A DNA stretch of 64,000 nt. It comes from Betaproteobacteria bacterium (lineage in GTDB: Bacteria > Bdellovibrionota_B > Oligoflexia > Silvanigrellales > Silvanigrellaceae). Below, piece after piece: positions 36,882 through 44,840 of this stretch (positions are counted from its first letter, which is position 1; every line of letters begins with the position of its first letter). The stretch lies in NCBI GenBank assembly GCA_016868315.1, contig VGHE01000003.1:62001-126000 (forward strand), in the 5' to 3' direction. The position numbers and the translations under genes are program-made. The notes under the pieces are model-generated. The model made no database searches. It was not told the DNA's origin and worked only from the letters and a program-made list of their open reading frames with translations.

Positions 36882-38999
36882 ATGGCGACCACAGGCAAAG
36901 ACCTCTCCATTGTTCGCAATATTGGTATCTCAGCTCACATTGACTCCGGAAAGACTACTCTTTCTGAGCGTATCCTGTTCTATACGGGCAAGATTCACAA
37001 AATTGAGGAAGTGAAGGGCAAGTCCGGCGTGGGTGCCACCATGGACTTCATGGAACTCGAGCGCGAGAAGGGCATCACGATTCAGTCTGCTGCAACCTTC
37101 TGCCAGTGGAACCAATTCGAAATCAACCTCATTGACACCCCCGGACACGTGGACTTCACCATTGAAGTTGAGCGCGCACTCCGCGTTCTCGACGGCGCCG
37201 TTCTGGTTCTCTGCTCGGTGGCCGGCGTGCAATCGCAGTCCATCACGGTCGACCGCCAGATGCGCCGTTACAACGTTCCACGCATCGCGTTCATCAACAA
37301 AATGGACCGCGCCGGCGCGAACCCATACCGCGTTTGCGAACAGCTGCGCGAGAAGCTCAACCACAACGCATGGATGATCAACATCCCAATTGGCGCTGAA
37401 GACCAATTCAAAGGCGTAGTTGACCTCATCACTATGAAGGCCAACTTCTACGACGGGTCCAACGGCGAGAAAATCCGCGTTGAAGACATCCCTGCAGAAA
37501 TGGTCGACATCGCTCACACCAAGCGCAACGACCTGCTCGGCGCTCTGGCCGACTTCGACGACAACCTGGCCGAGAAATACCTCGCAGAAGAAGCTATTTC
37601 TGAGCAAGAAATCCGCACAGTTCTGCGCAAGGCTACACTTTCTCTGGATTTCACTCCCGTCATGTGCGGCTCTGCATTCAAGAACAAGGGTGTGCAGAAC
37701 CTTCTCGACGCAGTGGGCTTCTACCTGCCCAACCCAACTGAAGTTGAGAACACCGCATTCAATCAGGATAAAAACGAAGAGAAATTCGTTATCAAGAACG
37801 ATCCAAACGGCCCACTTGCAATGCTTGCATTCAAGCTTGAAGACGGACGTTTCGGTCAGCTGACTTACATGCGCATCTACTCAGGTACTATCCGCAAGGG
37901 TGACACCATTCTGAACGTTAACAGTGACAAAAAGGTCAAGGTTCCACGTTTGGTGCGCATGAACGCAAACGAAATGGTCGAGTGCGAAGAAGCGGTGGCT
38001 GGCGATATCGTGGCCATGTTTGGTGTTGAGTGTGCCTCGGGTGAAAGCTTCACCGATGGCATCGTGCGCTACACCATGTCGTCGATCTTCGTTCCCAACG
38101 CGGTTATCTCTCTCGCAGTTGCTCCTAAGGATAAGTCTGCCCAGGCAAACTTCTCGAAGGCGCTCAACCGCTTCACCAAGGAAGACCCAACCTTCCGCGT
38201 TCACCGCGACGAAGAATCGGGCGAAACTATCATTTCCGGTATGGGCGAGCTTCACCTCGAAATCTACGTCGAGCGTATGAAGCGCGAATTCAACTGCGAA
38301 TGTATTGTTGGTAAGCCTCAGGTGAACTTCCGTGAAACAATCGGTGGTCGCGCTGAAATCAACTACACCCACAAAAAGCAGTCCGGTGGTTCGGGTCAGT
38401 TTGCGCGTATCATTGGCTTCTTGGAGCCCATCGCCCCCGATGAAGCTGGTGTTATTAAGCCATACGAATTTGCCGACGAAACCGTTGGTGGTTCTATTCC
38501 ACGTCAGTACATTCCTGCGTGTGACAAGGGCTTTATTGAGCAAATGCGAACCGGTCAGTTGGTCGGCGCTCAAGTCACCGGCGTGAAGATTGTTGTCAAC
38601 GACGGTCTGCACCACCCTGTCGACTCTTCGGAAATGGCGTTCAAGATCTGTGCGATGGCCGCTTTCCGCGAATCGTATTTGAATGCGAAACCCACGATCC
38701 TCGAGCCTATCATGAAGGTTGGTATCGAAGGACCAGAAGAGTTCCAGGGAACTATGATGGGTCTCATCAGCCAGCGCCGCGGTATGCTGACCGGCTCTTC
38801 GAGCAACGGCGGCTACGCGCAAATTGAAGCTGAAGTCCCGCTGAGCGAAATGTTCGGCTTCTCGACCGACCTCCGCTCCGGTACGCAGGGCAAGGGCGAA
38901 TTCTCGATGGAATTCCACAAGTACGCCCCAGTACCCAAGAACGTTCAGGACGAAATGATCGAGAAGTACAAAGCGAAGCGCGCTGCCGAGAACAAGTAA
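36882..38999 (+). CDS. fusA: Elongation factor G, spd/mitochondrial EFG1 type
   Basis: 705 residues. Translocase GTPase on the ribosome: P-loop AHIDSGKTT, switch [31 protein letters not shown], plus domains [15 protein letters not shown] and GITIQSAAT follow the form found in mitochondrial EFG1 and its spirochaete/planctomycete/delta-proteobacterial relatives rather than E. coli FusA (HIDAGKTTTTER). Codons are strongly biased to C-ending forms (aac, ttc, atc), unlike neighbours, consistent with very high expression. Not in a str operon; no rpsL, rpsG or tuf nearby. The next gene begins two bases after the stop. Confidence 0.95.
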
Positions 39000-39001
39000 C
39001 A

Positions 39002-39463
39002 ATGACGCTTGTTTCTTCGGAACTTGTCGAGGGAATGAATCAACTGCTGCAGGTGCTGACAACAGCCCTGCAGCAGTTGCGCGTTCACAGGGCAAAAACT
39101 CGAGTTTGGGGCTACCAACGTTTGCACGAACTGCTCACGGCTCAGTCTTCGAAAATCTCCGATTTTCAGGACGCGCTGCTCACGCGGCTGTTGGTCATGG
39201 ATGCGCACGTCGACCTGCAGAATGTAGGGCGCCTTCGCATCGGCCAGACCGTTGAAGATATCCTGGCAAGCGAACGTGGCTTGGCACTTGAAAGTGTCCA
39301 GCTCTGCCAGCGACTTCATGAAATGACCCGGCTCGACGTCGCGACACGTGTTCTCCTCGAAAAAATCGCCCTGGCGGAAGACGAAAGACTCCAGAGCTAC
39401 GATCAAAGCCTTGAGCTCATTCGGCAACTCGGAACTCCCCAGTTTCTTTCCACCCGATGCTGA
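39002..39463 (+). CDS. Bacterioferritin-like protein lacking most ferroxidase ligands
   Basis: 153 residues, full bacterioferritin length. The similarity is clear in the second half: LQNVGRLRIGQTVEDILASERGLALESV.. and SLELIRQLG match the usual LGxLxIGE.VxEML..DLALE and LELI..IG. By my alignment the ferroxidase ligands E18, E51, H54 and H130 of E. coli Bfr are replaced by L19, I52, F55 and R129; only E97 and E126 remain, and the haem Met52 is Ser53. It should keep the four-helix fold but not oxidise iron. Begins two bases after fusA, so it rides on a very highly expressed transcript. Confidence 0.78.
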   Translation: MTLVSSELVEGMNQLLQVLTTALQQLRVHRAKTRVWGYQRLHELLTAQSSKISDFQDALLTRLLVMDAHVDLQNVGRLRIGQTVEDILASERGLALESVQLCQRLHEMTRLDVATRVLLEKIALAEDERLQSYDQSLELIRQLGTPQFLSTRC

Positions 39464-39478: not shown

Positions 39479-40951
39479 GTGACCATGCAAAATCCCGCAC
39501 TCCCTTTTTTCCTGTTGCCGTTCTTCATGATGTCCGGTGTTGCTCTGCAGACCGCCGGTGTTTACCTGTGCCTTGTTTTGTGGGTGTTTGTCCGCGGACA
39601 GAGTGTCGGCTTTGCATCTCACAGAGCCATTCTAAGCACAGCCTCGCTGCTGGCGGTGGCCTACCTTATCCCCATTGTTTTTCAATCGATTTTGGCAACG
39701 AGTATAAACCCGCTGCAGTACTGCTTTGTTGATCCGCCTCGGGTTCTCGATTGCAAAGTCACTTTGAAAACCTGGTTGAAAAGCCCAGTAAGCTCACTTT
39801 TCATCGGCTTGGCTTTCGGCTGGACTCTTTTCGTTCTCACGCACAAAAAATCTGCTCGCCCCACTCAGGCACAGGCCGTTGCCGGCTTGAATGTGCTCAG
39901 TGACGATGTCCAAAGAGTGCGTGGCTTTTCGCGCGGACTTTTGTACGCAACGCTCATTTTCTTTGCCTACTGTCTTTATCAGCACCTGACTGGGTTCAGT
40001 GCTCTGCTCAAAACCAAAATCCTCGCCGATGAACACCGCATGCCCAATGGCACGTGGCGTGTGTTTGGATTTTACGGACATCCACTGTCGTTGGCCGGTG
40101 CATGCCTCATCTGGAGCTCAATGGCTCTCTTTGGTTTGTGTACCGAAGTCCGCAGCCGTGGCGCGCAAGCATCAGGCTTGAGCCTCCAGGGCTGGGCTAT
40201 TGTGGCTCTGCTTCAATCTGCACTGGTCTACATGAGCGGTGGTCGCATGGCTCTTGCCGTGCTGGCGGTGCTTTGGCTCTTTTTTGCTTTGGCTGTTGCT
40301 GTCGGGGTACTTATTCCACGTTTTGCAACCAGCAAAAAAACAAAGCATTTGGTGCAAACTTTGCTTGGTGCCTCTGCACTTTCGACCATTGCCGCACTGG
40401 CTTGGGCTCTCTCTTCCGGCATCATTCAAAACTGGGCCGAGAAAATTTTCTCGCGTGGTTTGGGTGGCGGAACCTTGGGGCAAGGCCCTCTCGGCGACCG
40501 CGAACTCTTCTGGCAAGTTTATCTCGCGATGTGGCGCGATTCACCGCTGGTGGGGCAAGGCTACTTTGCTGTCGAGCATGGGCTCCGCACAGAATACTAC
40601 CTGCGTGAAGGTCTTGCCTCGCTGCGCGATAAATTCAACGCCCACAACATCTTCCTCGAAATTCTCGGATTAACCGGAGTCTTGGGACTGCTCTCTTATT
40701 TGGTTGTCTGTGTGTTGCTTGGATTGAACATGAAGGTTCTGGCGGGGCGTTCCCCCCAGCGACGATTCATACTGGGTTCACTGGTCTTTGCATTCCTTGC
40801 GAATTTGTTGCACGGCCTGACCCAGAACACTTTTTTCGATTCAGCTCTCACAACCTGTTACCTCGCTCTTGTAGGTGTTCTGGTTGTTCCGCCGTTGAAG
40901 CAGAAAAGTGCAGAGTCCTCACCTTCATCAATGAATTTTAAGAATCAATGA
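39479..40951 (+). CDS. O-antigen ligase/polymerase-like membrane protein
   Basis: 490 residues, about 11-12 membrane helices. The large soluble loop with RVFGFYGHPLSLAGACLIW and the later DRELFWQVYLAMWRDSPLVGQGYFAVEH, then FNAHNIFLEILGLTGVLGLLSYL, are the pattern of the Wzy/WaaL family (PF04932), enzymes that polymerise or ligate O-antigen or other surface glycans on the periplasmic face. GTG 39479 (or ATG 39485) follows GGAGG. No other glycan genes adjoin, so ligase versus polymerase is undecided. Overlaps the next gene by ATGA. Confidence 0.82.
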   Translation: MTMQNPALPFFLLPFFMMSGVALQTAGVYLCLVLWVFVRGQSVGFASHRAILSTASLLAVAYLIPIVFQSILATSINPLQYCFVDPPRVLDCKVTLKTWLKSPVSSLFIGLAFGWTLFVLTHKKSARPTQAQAVAGLNVLSDDVQRVRGFSRGLLYATLIFFAYCLYQHLTGFSALLKTKILADEHRMPNGTWRVFGFYGHPLSLAGACLIWSSMALFGLCTEVRSRGAQASGLSLQGWAIVALLQSALVYMSGGRMALAVLAVLWLFFALAVAVGVLIPRFATSKKTKHLVQTLLGASALSTIAALAWALSSGIIQNWAEKIFSRGLGGGTLGQGPLGDRELFWQVYLAMWRDSPLVGQGYFAVEHGLRTEYYLREGLASLRDKFNAHNIFLEILGLTGVLGLLSYLVVCVLLGLNMKVLAGRSPQRRFILGSLVFAFLANLLHGLTQNTFFDSALTTCYLALVGVLVVPPLKQKSAESSPSSMNFKNQ

Positions 40952-42204
40952 TGCGAGAAGCGCTTTCATCGCGCCTCTCATTTGCCCTATCTGTTGCTCT
41001 GCTGTGCGCTCTGCTGGGTGCAATTTTCAATCATGGCCTCGATGCTGTTATAGGTTTTCACCGTGCGCATCCTTGGTGCGTGTGGCTACTTCCCATCGTA
41101 TTGATGCTCACTCTTTTTCTTGAAAATCGTCTTGCAGCTTACACATCTCAAACAGAAGAACAGAGTGACCAGCGCCCAGTCAACACCGAAACACTGCACA
41201 GCCGATGGTTTGGTTTTCTGTTGGTTCCACTCACCTGGATGTCTCACCTGGGTGGAGCATCGGTTGGGCGCGAAAGTGTGGCTGCGCGCTTGGGTCGCTC
41301 CATAGCATTCGAACTCAAGCTTTTTCCTTGGCTCCCTTTCAGCCGGATTGATGACCTCCTCGCTGCACGTATTGGTGTGGCCTGCGGGTTTGCTACGGTT
41401 TTCGGTTCTCCGTTTGCCGGTGCAATATTCGCACTGGAATCGTTGCACAGTGTGCGTTCTGCAAGCGAGTTTTCAAATACATTGAATCAGGATGATGAAC
41501 AGACGGGATGGAAATTCAAAAATAATTTAATGCACCTTTTGCTGTGCCTTGTACCTGCTTGGATTGCGCATCTATCTGCAACTCAAATACTCGCTGTTCA
41601 GCATCCGGAGTTTCCGATTGGCACATTTCAGTTCAACGGAGTTTTTATCCTCTTTCATGCGACACTCTTTATCGCCACCGGCGTGACTTGGCTTGTTTAC
41701 AAAAACCTCTCTGAATTTTTCCAGCAAATTTTTGCGTCGCAGTTGTTTTCTAGGCTCTGGGTTCTTTTCTTTGCAGCCTGTGCGCTCTCCGTGCTGCTCT
41801 CCTTAAATACTTTTGCTCCATACAAAAACCTTGGAACGGATTTCATTCAGGGTTCTCTTGCCTCACACGCGTCTCCAAAAACAATTCAAAATTGGGACTG
41901 GCTGCTCAAATCCCTCTTCACAACCCTTTGTCTTGGATTGGGCTTCCGAGGCGGTGCGGTCACACCATTGCTGTCAATTGGTGTGCTGATGGCTGTGCCC
42001 ATCGGGGCACTATTTGGGGTTGCGGCTCCATTTGCAGCGGCATCGGGTTACGCCGTGATGTTCAGCGCCATTATGAACATGCCGTTCACCGGTGCTGTTC
42101 TTGCGTTGGAGACTTTTGGTTTTAATGGCGGTCTAGGCGCTATGACTCTGTGTCTTGTGGCTGGTCTGATTTTTTCCAGATTGTCAGCCCCTCTCTCAAA
42201 ATAG
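40948..42204 (+). CDS. ClC-family chloride channel/antiporter
   Basis: 418 residues, about ten membrane segments. ClC signatures: HLGGASVGRESVAARLG (selectivity-filter motif with the gating-type Glu retained as GRES rather than GREGP), GVACGFATVFGSPFAGAIFALE, and GLGFRGGAVTPLLSIGVLM. Slightly short for the family. The gating Glu suggests a Cl-/H+ exchanger or a F-/Cl- variant; this cannot be settled by eye. Coupled to the upstream ligase-like gene by ATGA. The last 65 bases overlap the 3' end of the convergent MNT gene. Confidence 0.87.
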   Translation: MMREALSSRLSFALSVALLCALLGAIFNHGLDAVIGFHRAHPWCVWLLPIVLMLTLFLENRLAAYTSQTEEQSDQRPVNTETLHSRWFGFLLVPLTWMSHLGGASVGRESVAARLGRSIAFELKLFPWLPFSRIDDLLAARIGVACGFATVFGSPFAGAIFALESLHSVRSASEFSNTLNQDDEQTGWKFKNNLMHLLLCLVPAWIAHLSATQILAVQHPEFPIGTFQFNGVFILFHATLFIATGVTWLVYKNLSEFFQQIFASQLFSRLWVLFFAACALSVLLSLNTFAPYKNLGTDFIQGSLASHASPKTIQNWDWLLKSLFTTLCLGLGFRGGAVTPLLSIGVLMAVPIGALFGVAAPFAAASGYAVMFSAIMNMPFTGAVLALETFGFNGGLGAMTLCLVAGLIFSRLSAPLSK

Positions 42205-42544
42205 CTGCTTTCAGTGCCTCTGGCGCCTCGTTCCAATCAACGGCATCGATATCCAAAAGCGTGTTTGCCTTCTCTGGAAGGTCGAGAGAAAATCTAAGCC
42301 ACTCTGTTCTTTTTCCCGTCGGAAACTTAAAGCACAAATCCCAATCAGATAACGGACGCTCATCACCACGAGCGCGGGAACCAAAAACAATGAGTTCTTC
42401 GAGCGCAATGCTCGCTCTTGCTTGGAAAACTATTTCCTTCAAAAAAAGGGGCAAAAAATCAAACCTTTGACCCACCGGAATAGTCTTCAAATCTTTCAAA
42501 GTCACATGAGAGCTGAGCTTCAGGGAACCGTGATGTTTATTCAT
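42140..42544 (-). CDS. MntA-like nucleotidyltransferase antitoxin
   Basis: 134 residues. MNT nucleotidyltransferase with GSRARG (G55-S56) and DWD (D67, D69), a complete GSx10DxD motif. In HepT/MntA pairs this enzyme AMPylates a Tyr of the toxin and so silences it. The start overlaps the stop of the HEPN gene (ATGA at 42541-42544). Here the substrate gene comes first, as in HI0074/HI0073. The 3' end runs 65 bases into the ClC gene on the other strand, an unusually long convergent overlap. Confidence 0.88.
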   Translation of the reverse strand: MNKHHGSLKLSSHVTLKDLKTIPVGQRFDFLPLFLKEIVFQARASIALEELIVFGSRARGDERPLSDWDLCFKFPTGKRTEWLRFSLDLPEKANTLLDIDAVDWNEAPEALKAAILREGLTIWKKSDQPQDTES

Positions 42545-42939
42545 GGAGCCTCTGTTTGTAACTCTTCTTTTAATTTATCCAAAAGTCTCTGAAACTCTTT
42601 GACGTAGAGGTTTTTCATGCGCGCAATCATTTCTGGCAGATAATCTGTCGAGTACGTGTGCGCGGTGGTGTTGCGATCTTTCTGCAGAGAGAGCCACAAG
42701 GGCTCGTCAACAATAAGACCCACCTTGAGGGCGTTGCGGATTGCATCGCGTGGAGACACAGACTCTAATCCACGTGACTCGGTGTAACTCTTCATAGACT
42801 TCAAAGAAAGTTCGTAGGTGTACTCGAATGCCTTTACGAAAGCTGCTTTGGGCATATTCTCTTCAAGATTCTCTCGAGAAAATTCTTCAAAAGTCCGCAA
42901 TGCTTTACCCAGGGCAACGAGTCTTTCATTTAATTTCAT
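42541..42939 (-). CDS. HepT-like HEPN toxin / nucleotidyltransferase substrate-binding protein
   Basis: 132 residues of the PF08780 (HI0074-like) family, four-helix bundle. Carries RNTTAHTY with R89, H94 and Y96: the HEPN RNase motif RNxxxH and, in full, the RX4HXY motif in which the Tyr is the AMPylation target of MntA. FEYTYELSLKSMKSYTE and SPRDAIRNALKVGLI are also family-typical. Promoter lies in the short AT-rich gap before ggt. Most likely the toxin of a type VII toxin-antitoxin pair. Confidence 0.88.
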   Translation of the reverse strand: MKLNERLVALGKALRTFEEFSRENLEENMPKAAFVKAFEYTYELSLKSMKSYTESRGLESVSPRDAIRNALKVGLIVDEPLWLSLQKDRNTTAHTYSTDYLPEMIARMKNLYVKEFQRLLDKLKEELQTEAP

Positions 42940-43067: not shown

Positions 43068-44840
43068 ATGTCGTTGACCCTCCTGCGCCACAAATTTGCG
43101 CTCAGCTTGTTCCCACTTTCTTGCTCCAGTTATGCAATTTTTATTCTCATTTTGATGCCTCAGGTGCAGGCCTCGGTGCAAATCGGACCACAGGAAAGTG
43201 TTCGGTTCGCCCGGGAAGGCACGCGGGGAATGGTGGTTGCCGACGACCAGCAGGCAGCGGAGTGGGGGGCAACTCCCCTGCGCAAAGGCGGCAACGCCAT
43301 CGACGCAGCGGTTGCCACAGGCTTTGCTCTAGCAGTGACGAGACCACACTATGCAGCTCTGGGCGGAGGCGGCTTTTTGGTCTTTTGCCCTGCACCCCGC
43401 AACGGTCAACCAAAGCAATGTCAGGTGATTGATTTTCGCGAGAAAGCGCCGGCATTAGCTCACCGCGACATGTATTTGCGCAACGGTAAAGCGGACACTC
43501 AAGTCTCACAAAATGGGGCTTTGGCCTCCGGAGTTCCTGGAGTCACCGCAGGACTTCTTTTAGCGCTTGAAAAATACGGAACACGCCCGCGCAAAGAAAT
43601 TCTGGCCGAGCCTATTCGCCTTGCCCGCAAGGGAATTCGCTTCAGCACAAATACAGAACAAGCGCTGCGTAGCCGCTGAGCCTCTATGAATCCAGAGGCG
43701 AAGCTCGTTTTCAGTTGTGCACGGGAAAATCAAGAGCACTGTAAAGTGGGAGATACACTGCGCCAAGAGGATCTTGCGCGTGTGCTTGAAGCTATTACCA
43801 AACGAGGAAAAAGAGGCTTTTACGAGGGCGTCGTTGCGCAAAAGTTAGTTCAGGGACTGCGTGCCTCAGGGGGAATCATGTCCCTCAAAGATCTGGCTCA
43901 GTACGCTCCGGCAGAGCGAATCCCTGTGCGGGGAGAATTTCAAAACCACGAAATCATCACCATGCCGCCCCCATCTTCGGGTGGTGCAGTGCTCGTGCAA
44001 ATGCTCGAGTACATGAAACGTGCAGGTGAACAGAAGCTCCTGAATAAAGGTTTTGCCTCTGTAGATGCTTTGCGTGCCCAGATTCATGCCATGTCGCTTG
44101 CTTTTGCTGAACGCGCCGAACACATGGGCGACAGCGATTTCTGGCCTGTCCCACTCGATATACTTTTGTCTGCACAGTACCTCGATGAGCGCTGGAAGAC
44201 TTTTCAGCCTGGCAAAGCCAACTTGCCGGAGGGCTCGGGCTTCCAATCGCCTGAGAAACTTCAAACAACCCACTTCTCTGTGATTGATGCAGAGGGCAAT
44301 GCTGTGGCCGTAACCGTAACGGTGAACGGCAATTTTGGCTCCGCTTTTGTTCCGCCCGGAACCGGTGTGGTTATGAACAACCAAATGGACGACTTCAGCA
44401 CGCAGCCAGGAGTTCCAAATCTCTTTGGTTTGGTGGGGGGTGAAGCCAATGCCATTGCACCCAACAAACGGCCTCTAAGCTCAATGAGCCCAACCATTGT
44501 CCGCAGCAAAAATGGAGTTGTGAAAGTCGTATTGGGTGCGGCTGGCGGGCCAAGAATCATCACATCTGTATTTCAAACAGTTCTCAATCGTCTTCAGTTT
44601 GAAATGCCGCTTGTGGATGCGGTGAGTGCTGCGCGGATTCATCATCAATGGAAGCCACAAACAGTGCGATTTGAACGCAACGGCCTGCCTGCCGAAACGT
44701 TGGAGCAACTAAAAGCATTGGGTTACACTCTCGAGGCCAGCAACGGCCTCGCAGTGATTCATGCCCTCGAGCGGACTTCGGATGGAAGAGTGGTTGGAGT
44801 TCCCGATCCACGCGGAGAAGGCTTTGCAGCTGCGGAGTGA
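43068..44840 (+). pseudogene. ggt: Gamma-glutamyltransferase interrupted by in-frame TGA
   Basis: Periplasmic enzyme cleaving the gamma-glutamyl bond of glutathione. With read-through it has 590 residues: signal peptide ending near VQA, the large-subunit start (GMVVADDQQAAEWGATPLRKGGNAIDAAVATGFAL), and the autoprocessing nucleophile T400 in QTTHFSV, with NNQMDDFS and NKRPLSSMSPTIV. TGA at 43677-43679 (codon 204) interrupts the frame after QALRSR; the same frame resumes with intact family sequence. The upstream part cannot be active. The downstream part has the nucleophile and an ATG at 43686 but no signal peptide or good ribosome site. Recent nonsense mutation (or base error) inferred. Confidence 0.9.

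Follow-up and report, generated by a model that had tools for sequence, protein, structure and literature searches.

A Silvanigrellaceae bacterioferritin derivative beside fusA, kept in fold and altered in its ferroxidase and haem sites

A bacterioferritin-like gene downstream of fusA

The window analysed here, a 64,000-nucleotide stretch of contig VGHE01000003.1, carries a bacterioferritin (Bfr)-like gene at 39002-39463 (+), which we call bfrL. It lies between fusA, encoding an EF-G, and an O-antigen ligase-like gene (Table 1). Profile searches place the bfrL product in the ferritin superfamily (PF00210; 36.7 bits, Pfam gathering cut-off 24.5) and leave it below the cut-off of the NCBIfam bacterioferritin equivalog TIGR00754 (57.6 versus 125.55 bits); its orthologues score 38-58 bits against the latter model. 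The closest solved proteins are Bfrs, aligned over the full length at about 23-25% identity.

Structure prediction returned a ferritin subunit. A first AlphaFold (AF2) model was built from an alignment that included canonical Bfrs and a second from the divergent sequences only (pLDDT 94.1 and 91.4, respectively). Both contain the same five helices, at residues 6-36, 39-65, 84-108, 113-143 and 145-152, which make up the five-helix ferritin subunit fold with its short helix E. Both also superimpose on solved Bfr chains (Z ~23.8, rmsd 1.4-1.5), and the structural register sets model residues 2-153 on Bfr 1-154.

Table 1 Features of the bfrL locus, in window coordinates
Feature	Position	Strand	Basis
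fusA, EF-G of spdEFG1/mitochondrial EFG1 type, located away from the str operon; neighbour on the upstream side, a functional link being unlikely	36882..38999	+	Profile, sequence scores, terminator folding
bfrL, Bfr-like gene, 153 aa	39002..39463	+	ORF list, profile matches, orthologues, AlphaFold models
Leu19 codon, replaces ferroxidase ligand Glu18	39056..39058	+	Alignment
Gln24-Gln25-Leu26-Arg27 codons; invariant Gln24 and Arg27 replace haem-pocket Asn23 and Phe26	39071..39082	+	Alignment, PMC2777505
Ile52 (Glu51), Ser53 (haem Met52), Asp54, Phe55 (His54) codons: ligands lost	39155..39166	+	Alignment
Invariant Asp57 codon (Bfr position 56, two-fold pocket)	39170..39172	+	Orthologue alignment
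Ala95 codon, invariant replacement of ligand Glu94	39284..39286	+	Alignment and orthologues
Glu126 (= Glu127, only kept ligand) to Arg129 (replaces His130) codons	39377..39388	+	Alignment
Gene for an O-antigen ligase-like (Wzy_C) protein, 15 nt after bfrL; probably same transcript in the window's genus	39479..40951	+	Profile, neighbourhood

Loss of ferroxidase and haem ligands

Ligands are numbered as in E. coli Bfr. Its ligand numbers match those of P. aeruginosa BfrB (PMC12120770) and PDB alignments. Measured this way, five of the six di-iron ligands are replaced in the window's bfrL (E18L, E51I, H54F, E94A and H130R), leaving E127 as the sole one kept, and the axial haem ligand is replaced as well (M52S). 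A preliminary description of this DNA had proposed a Bfr homologue without a ferroxidase centre, with four of six metal ligands and the haem Met replaced. The proposal holds, since the ligands and the haem Met are gone, the subunit fold is intact and the gene is conserved in relatives; the number of lost ligands is five rather than four. Profile, pairwise and structural alignments against Bfr agree on these losses. An alternative alignment that would restore the ligands was ruled out because the structural alignment gives the same register as the other two.

The substitutions recur throughout the orthologue set. E18, E51, E94 (always Ala) and M52 are absent from all nine sequences, with Ser at position 52 in eight and Cys in one, while H54, E127 and H130 are each retained by a minority. 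The inner-surface iron site H46/D50/D126, together with E47, Tyr25 and W133, is not conserved in the group. No conserved acidic patch was found on the inner surface at positions 46, 47, 50 and 126, which are either non-conserved or non-acidic. From these residues, we infer that the bfrL protein itself would neither oxidize nor store iron.

A possible rebuilt pocket at the two-fold axis

The haem pocket of M. tuberculosis BfrA is lined by L19, I22, N23, F26, R45, F49, M52, R53, A55, E56 and Y71 (PMC2777505). At Bfr pocket positions 23, 26 and 56, the bfrL orthologues carry invariant Gln, Arg and Asp, next to the Ser or Cys at position 52. The old haem pocket at the two-fold may thus have been remade from Gln24, Arg27, Ser53 and Asp57 (bfrL numbering), and could serve either to join the two subunits through polar contacts without haem or to hold another, possibly anionic, ligand.

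Five residues are critical for oligomerization of E. coli Bfr, namely K33, Y45, D56, E60 and E128 (PMC6529640). Only D56 is kept throughout the bfrL orthologues (one of five), so assembly may be altered or lost. The bfrL protein would still form the antiparallel two-fold dimer, and it probably forms a shell via helix E at the four-fold.

Orthologues, selection and canonical Bfrs

The bfrL orthologues number only nine, including the window's, with five from one genus and genomes that are partly draft; all belong to the GTDB family Silvanigrellaceae (G000-G003, G006-G008, G011 and G012), freshwater bacteria related to Silvanigrella. Named carriers include Fluviispira multicolorata, a cultured relative, together with one uncultured Silvanigrella MAG and one Silvanigrellales MAG. 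The orthologues form one clade (support 100/100) and reach profile scores of 210-253 bits, whereas canonical Bfrs score at most 84 bits. Scanning bacterial and archaeal genomes with two short conserved peptides, which distant bfrL members could escape, produced 49 matches and no bfrL-type relative outside the family: four were divergent, all in-family, and the remainder were canonical Bfrs with ligands intact. No bfrL was found in viral contigs. At the corresponding place in G004, G009 and G010, bfrL is missing.

Within two genera, dN/dS of bfrL is 0.04-0.11, with dS partly saturated. Frames are intact, and class-specific residues are fixed across ~40% identity. These comparisons indicate that bfrL is under purifying selection. 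Constraint is unevenly distributed along the protein. Mean pair identity in the bfrL group drops to 0.33 in helix B (canonical Bfrs, 0.65) and to 0.29 in the first two thirds of helix D (canonical Bfrs, 0.63). Constraint remains in helix A, the BC loop, the start of C, the end of D and helix E; bfrL and canonical values are 0.67 and 0.69 in the BC loop, 0.66 and 0.64 at the start of C, 0.76 and 0.60 at the end of D, and 0.75 and 0.67 in E. In ferritins the cavity is lined by helices B and D, which bear most of the iron chemistry. With these helices now variable in bfrL, constraint has moved away from iron handling and onto the outer parts and those at the dimer and the four-fold.

Canonical Bfrs are unevenly shared among the same genomes. 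The five Silvanigrella/Fluviispira-type carriers (G006-G008, G011 and G012) have one with all ferroxidase and haem ligands, 20-50 kb from bfrL. None was found in G000-G003, where bfrL is the only form; these drafts are 91-98% complete. Conversely, G005, G009 and G010 have a canonical Bfr without bfrL, and neither gene was found in G004. A canonical Bfr is therefore not an obligate partner of bfrL, which seems to act without one in G000-G003. Besides bfrL, the window's genome has a rubrerythrin-like ORF and encodes a Dps-like protein, both named by sequence inspection. The same genome, in which no canonical Bfr was detected, also encodes a small Fer2_BFD protein (93 aa, L156 1450-1731).

The fusA neighbourhood

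As described previously, bfrL starts two bases after the EF-G gene, just past the fusA stop at 38999. The two genes adjoin in all nine carriers, and the order recA-ddl-fusA is conserved in the family, in carriers and non-carriers alike. A leucyl aminopeptidase gene (PF00883; 34014-35522 (-) in the window) separates recA from ddl in G003 and in the window's genus, and was not seen at this place in Silvanigrella/Fluviispira-type genomes.

Folding revealed a strong intrinsic terminator between fusA and bfrL in six of the nine carriers (the five Silvanigrella/Fluviispira-type genomes and G003), consisting of a hairpin and U-rich tail at -18 to -22 kcal/mol; a terminator scan missed these structures, probably because their loops exceed 8 bases. 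A similar terminator lies 3' of fusA in the non-carriers G009 and G010. Only in the window's genus do fusA and bfrL abut, with neither a terminator nor a clear ribosome-binding site, which makes read-through and translational coupling likely in that genus. The cotranscription with fusA suggested in the preliminary description is therefore plausible only in the window's genus. The fusA link is conserved across relatives as adjacency, but it is interrupted by terminators in six of nine carriers, and the gene order persists without bfrL.

In the five Silvanigrella/Fluviispira-type genomes, a convergent HTH-like (HTH_17/MerR-like) gene flanks the pair, with bfrL in between; examples convergent to fusA-bfrL are L112 3654-4433, L113 671-1444 and L038 8962-9702. 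In G009 and G010, nothing separates fusA from the HTH-like gene, which suggests that bfrL was lost there.

Codon usage does not bear out the very high expression level once proposed for bfrL. Its codon adaptation value of 0.608 lies with ordinary neighbours (0.57-0.66), compared with 0.767 for recA and 0.841 for fusA, itself part of the reference set. No EF-G column separates bfrL carriers from non-carriers. Switch I of the window's EF-G carries an insertion of three residues, and the protein scores highest against human mtEFG1; a second EF-G gene follows rpsL-rpsG elsewhere in the genome (L119). In spdEFG1, the conserved switch I insertion is KDG (PMC3150367). The window's protein resembles spdEFG1 and mitochondrial EFG1 in having such an insertion and differs in its sequence, KSG; it fits an spdEFG1/mtEFG1-type copy, not the str-operon one.

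Beyond the O-antigen ligase-like gene, the window holds an overlapping pair at 42140-42939 (-), comprising a nucleotidyltransferase (PF18765) and an NTase substrate-binding/HEPN-like protein (PF08780) and resembling an MNT-HEPN toxin-antitoxin pair. A gamma-glutamyltranspeptidase gene at 43068-44840 contains one in-frame TGA (43677-43679), and both halves match PF01019; it is a pseudogene, an assembly error or a case of unusual readthrough.

Discussion

The description that fits the bfrL protein best is of a bacterioferritin derivative, specific to this lineage, whose ferroxidase, haem and nucleation features are lost and whose fold is kept; the label 'bacterioferritin' would mislead on its function. 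Like canonical Bfrs (E. coli Bfr, P. aeruginosa BfrB), it has the subunit length, five-helix fold, BC loop and helix E, and it shares with them Q24, H28, W35, G36, Q72, G80, V83 and G145 (E. coli numbering). Unlike them, it lacks five of six di-iron ligands and Met52, along with W133, the inner iron site and most of the chemistry of helices B and D, and its haem pocket is re-lined with Gln, Arg, Ser and Asp. We favour, with a probability of roughly 55%, a lineage-specific pseudo-bacterioferritin of Silvanigrellaceae that has given up iron chemistry while retaining the fold and, probably, the dimer and the shell, that has a remade two-fold pocket and would act as a structural or binding protein, and whose place beside fusA is inherited gene order. 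More speculatively, and with considerable doubt on our part, the two-fold pocket (Arg27, Gln24, Ser53 and Asp57 from both subunits) might bind another, probably anionic, small molecule, which an iron-free Bfr dimer or cage would sense or buffer.

It is also conceivable, if unlikely, that bfrL is a non-catalytic partner that mixes with a ferroxidase-competent Bfr in a hetero-24-mer, like Magnetospirillum Bfr2, Shewanella Bfr2 or vertebrate L-chain ferritin. The L chain is a subunit without a ferroxidase centre or haem, and bfrL is similar in both respects; unlike the L chain, bfrL has no conserved acidic nucleation patch, the inner acidic residues of such a nucleator not being conserved, and no catalytic partner was found in several carriers. 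Bfr pairs with divided functions are known (PMC6529640, PMC12120770), and the five Silvanigrella/Fluviispira-type carriers could supply a complete canonical Bfr. Those canonical Bfrs, however, have full ferroxidase and haem sets and need no helper. Magnetospirillum Bfr2 (PMC6529640) and Shewanella SoBfr2 (PMC12120770), which bfrL resembles as Bfr subunits with a damaged ferroxidase centre, are ferroxidase-poor hetero-Bfr subunits that keep Met52 and act with a ferroxidase-competent partner. In contrast, bfrL has lost Met52, does not lie beside bfr and occurs where no canonical Bfr was found, and three genomes show the reverse combination. Unless a canonical Bfr is missing from all four drafts G000-G003, a hetero-24-mer is possible in some carriers and is not the shared function.

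We consider it improbable that bfrL remains a ferritin active on iron or some other metal through a relocated or changed metal site. In its favour, histidine stands at 18, 47, 54 or 130 in some members (all four in G007), which may have a different metal site, and two acidic positions are retained or fixed, namely the B-channel acid at 66 and an invariant Glu at 139. However, no bundle-core set of His, Asp or Glu is common to all nine, and five of the six ligand sites in the window's bfrL are occupied by Leu, Ile, Phe, Ala and Arg. A cage or adaptor working with EF-G or the ribosome and co-made at high level, akin to the ribosome-linked protein first thought possible, appears very improbable. 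Adjacency in every carrier and the probable translational coupling across the 2-nt gap in the window's genus would suit it; the terminators, ordinary codon usage, conserved ddl-fusA order, lack of any EF-G position that tracks bfrL and several relatives without bfrL whose EF-G is unchanged led us to reject an EF-G partnership. The preliminary description knew of no EF-G/Bfr pairing, and our literature search likewise found nothing on such a link or on a bfrL protein. The fusA adjacency looks incidental, a matter of inherited gene order and not of functional pairing. Finally, bfrL could be a decaying gene without function, as its absence at the same place in three genomes might suggest, an idea made barely credible by the low dN/dS within two genera, by reading frames that are intact and by class-specific residues that have become fixed.

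The ferroxidase-poor Bfr subunits described in PMC6529640 and PMC12120770 are helpers of an active partner. If the pseudo-bacterioferritin reading is true, the bfrL family would instead represent a bacterioferritin fold or shell retained for a non-iron purpose, among genomes that yielded no active Bfr.
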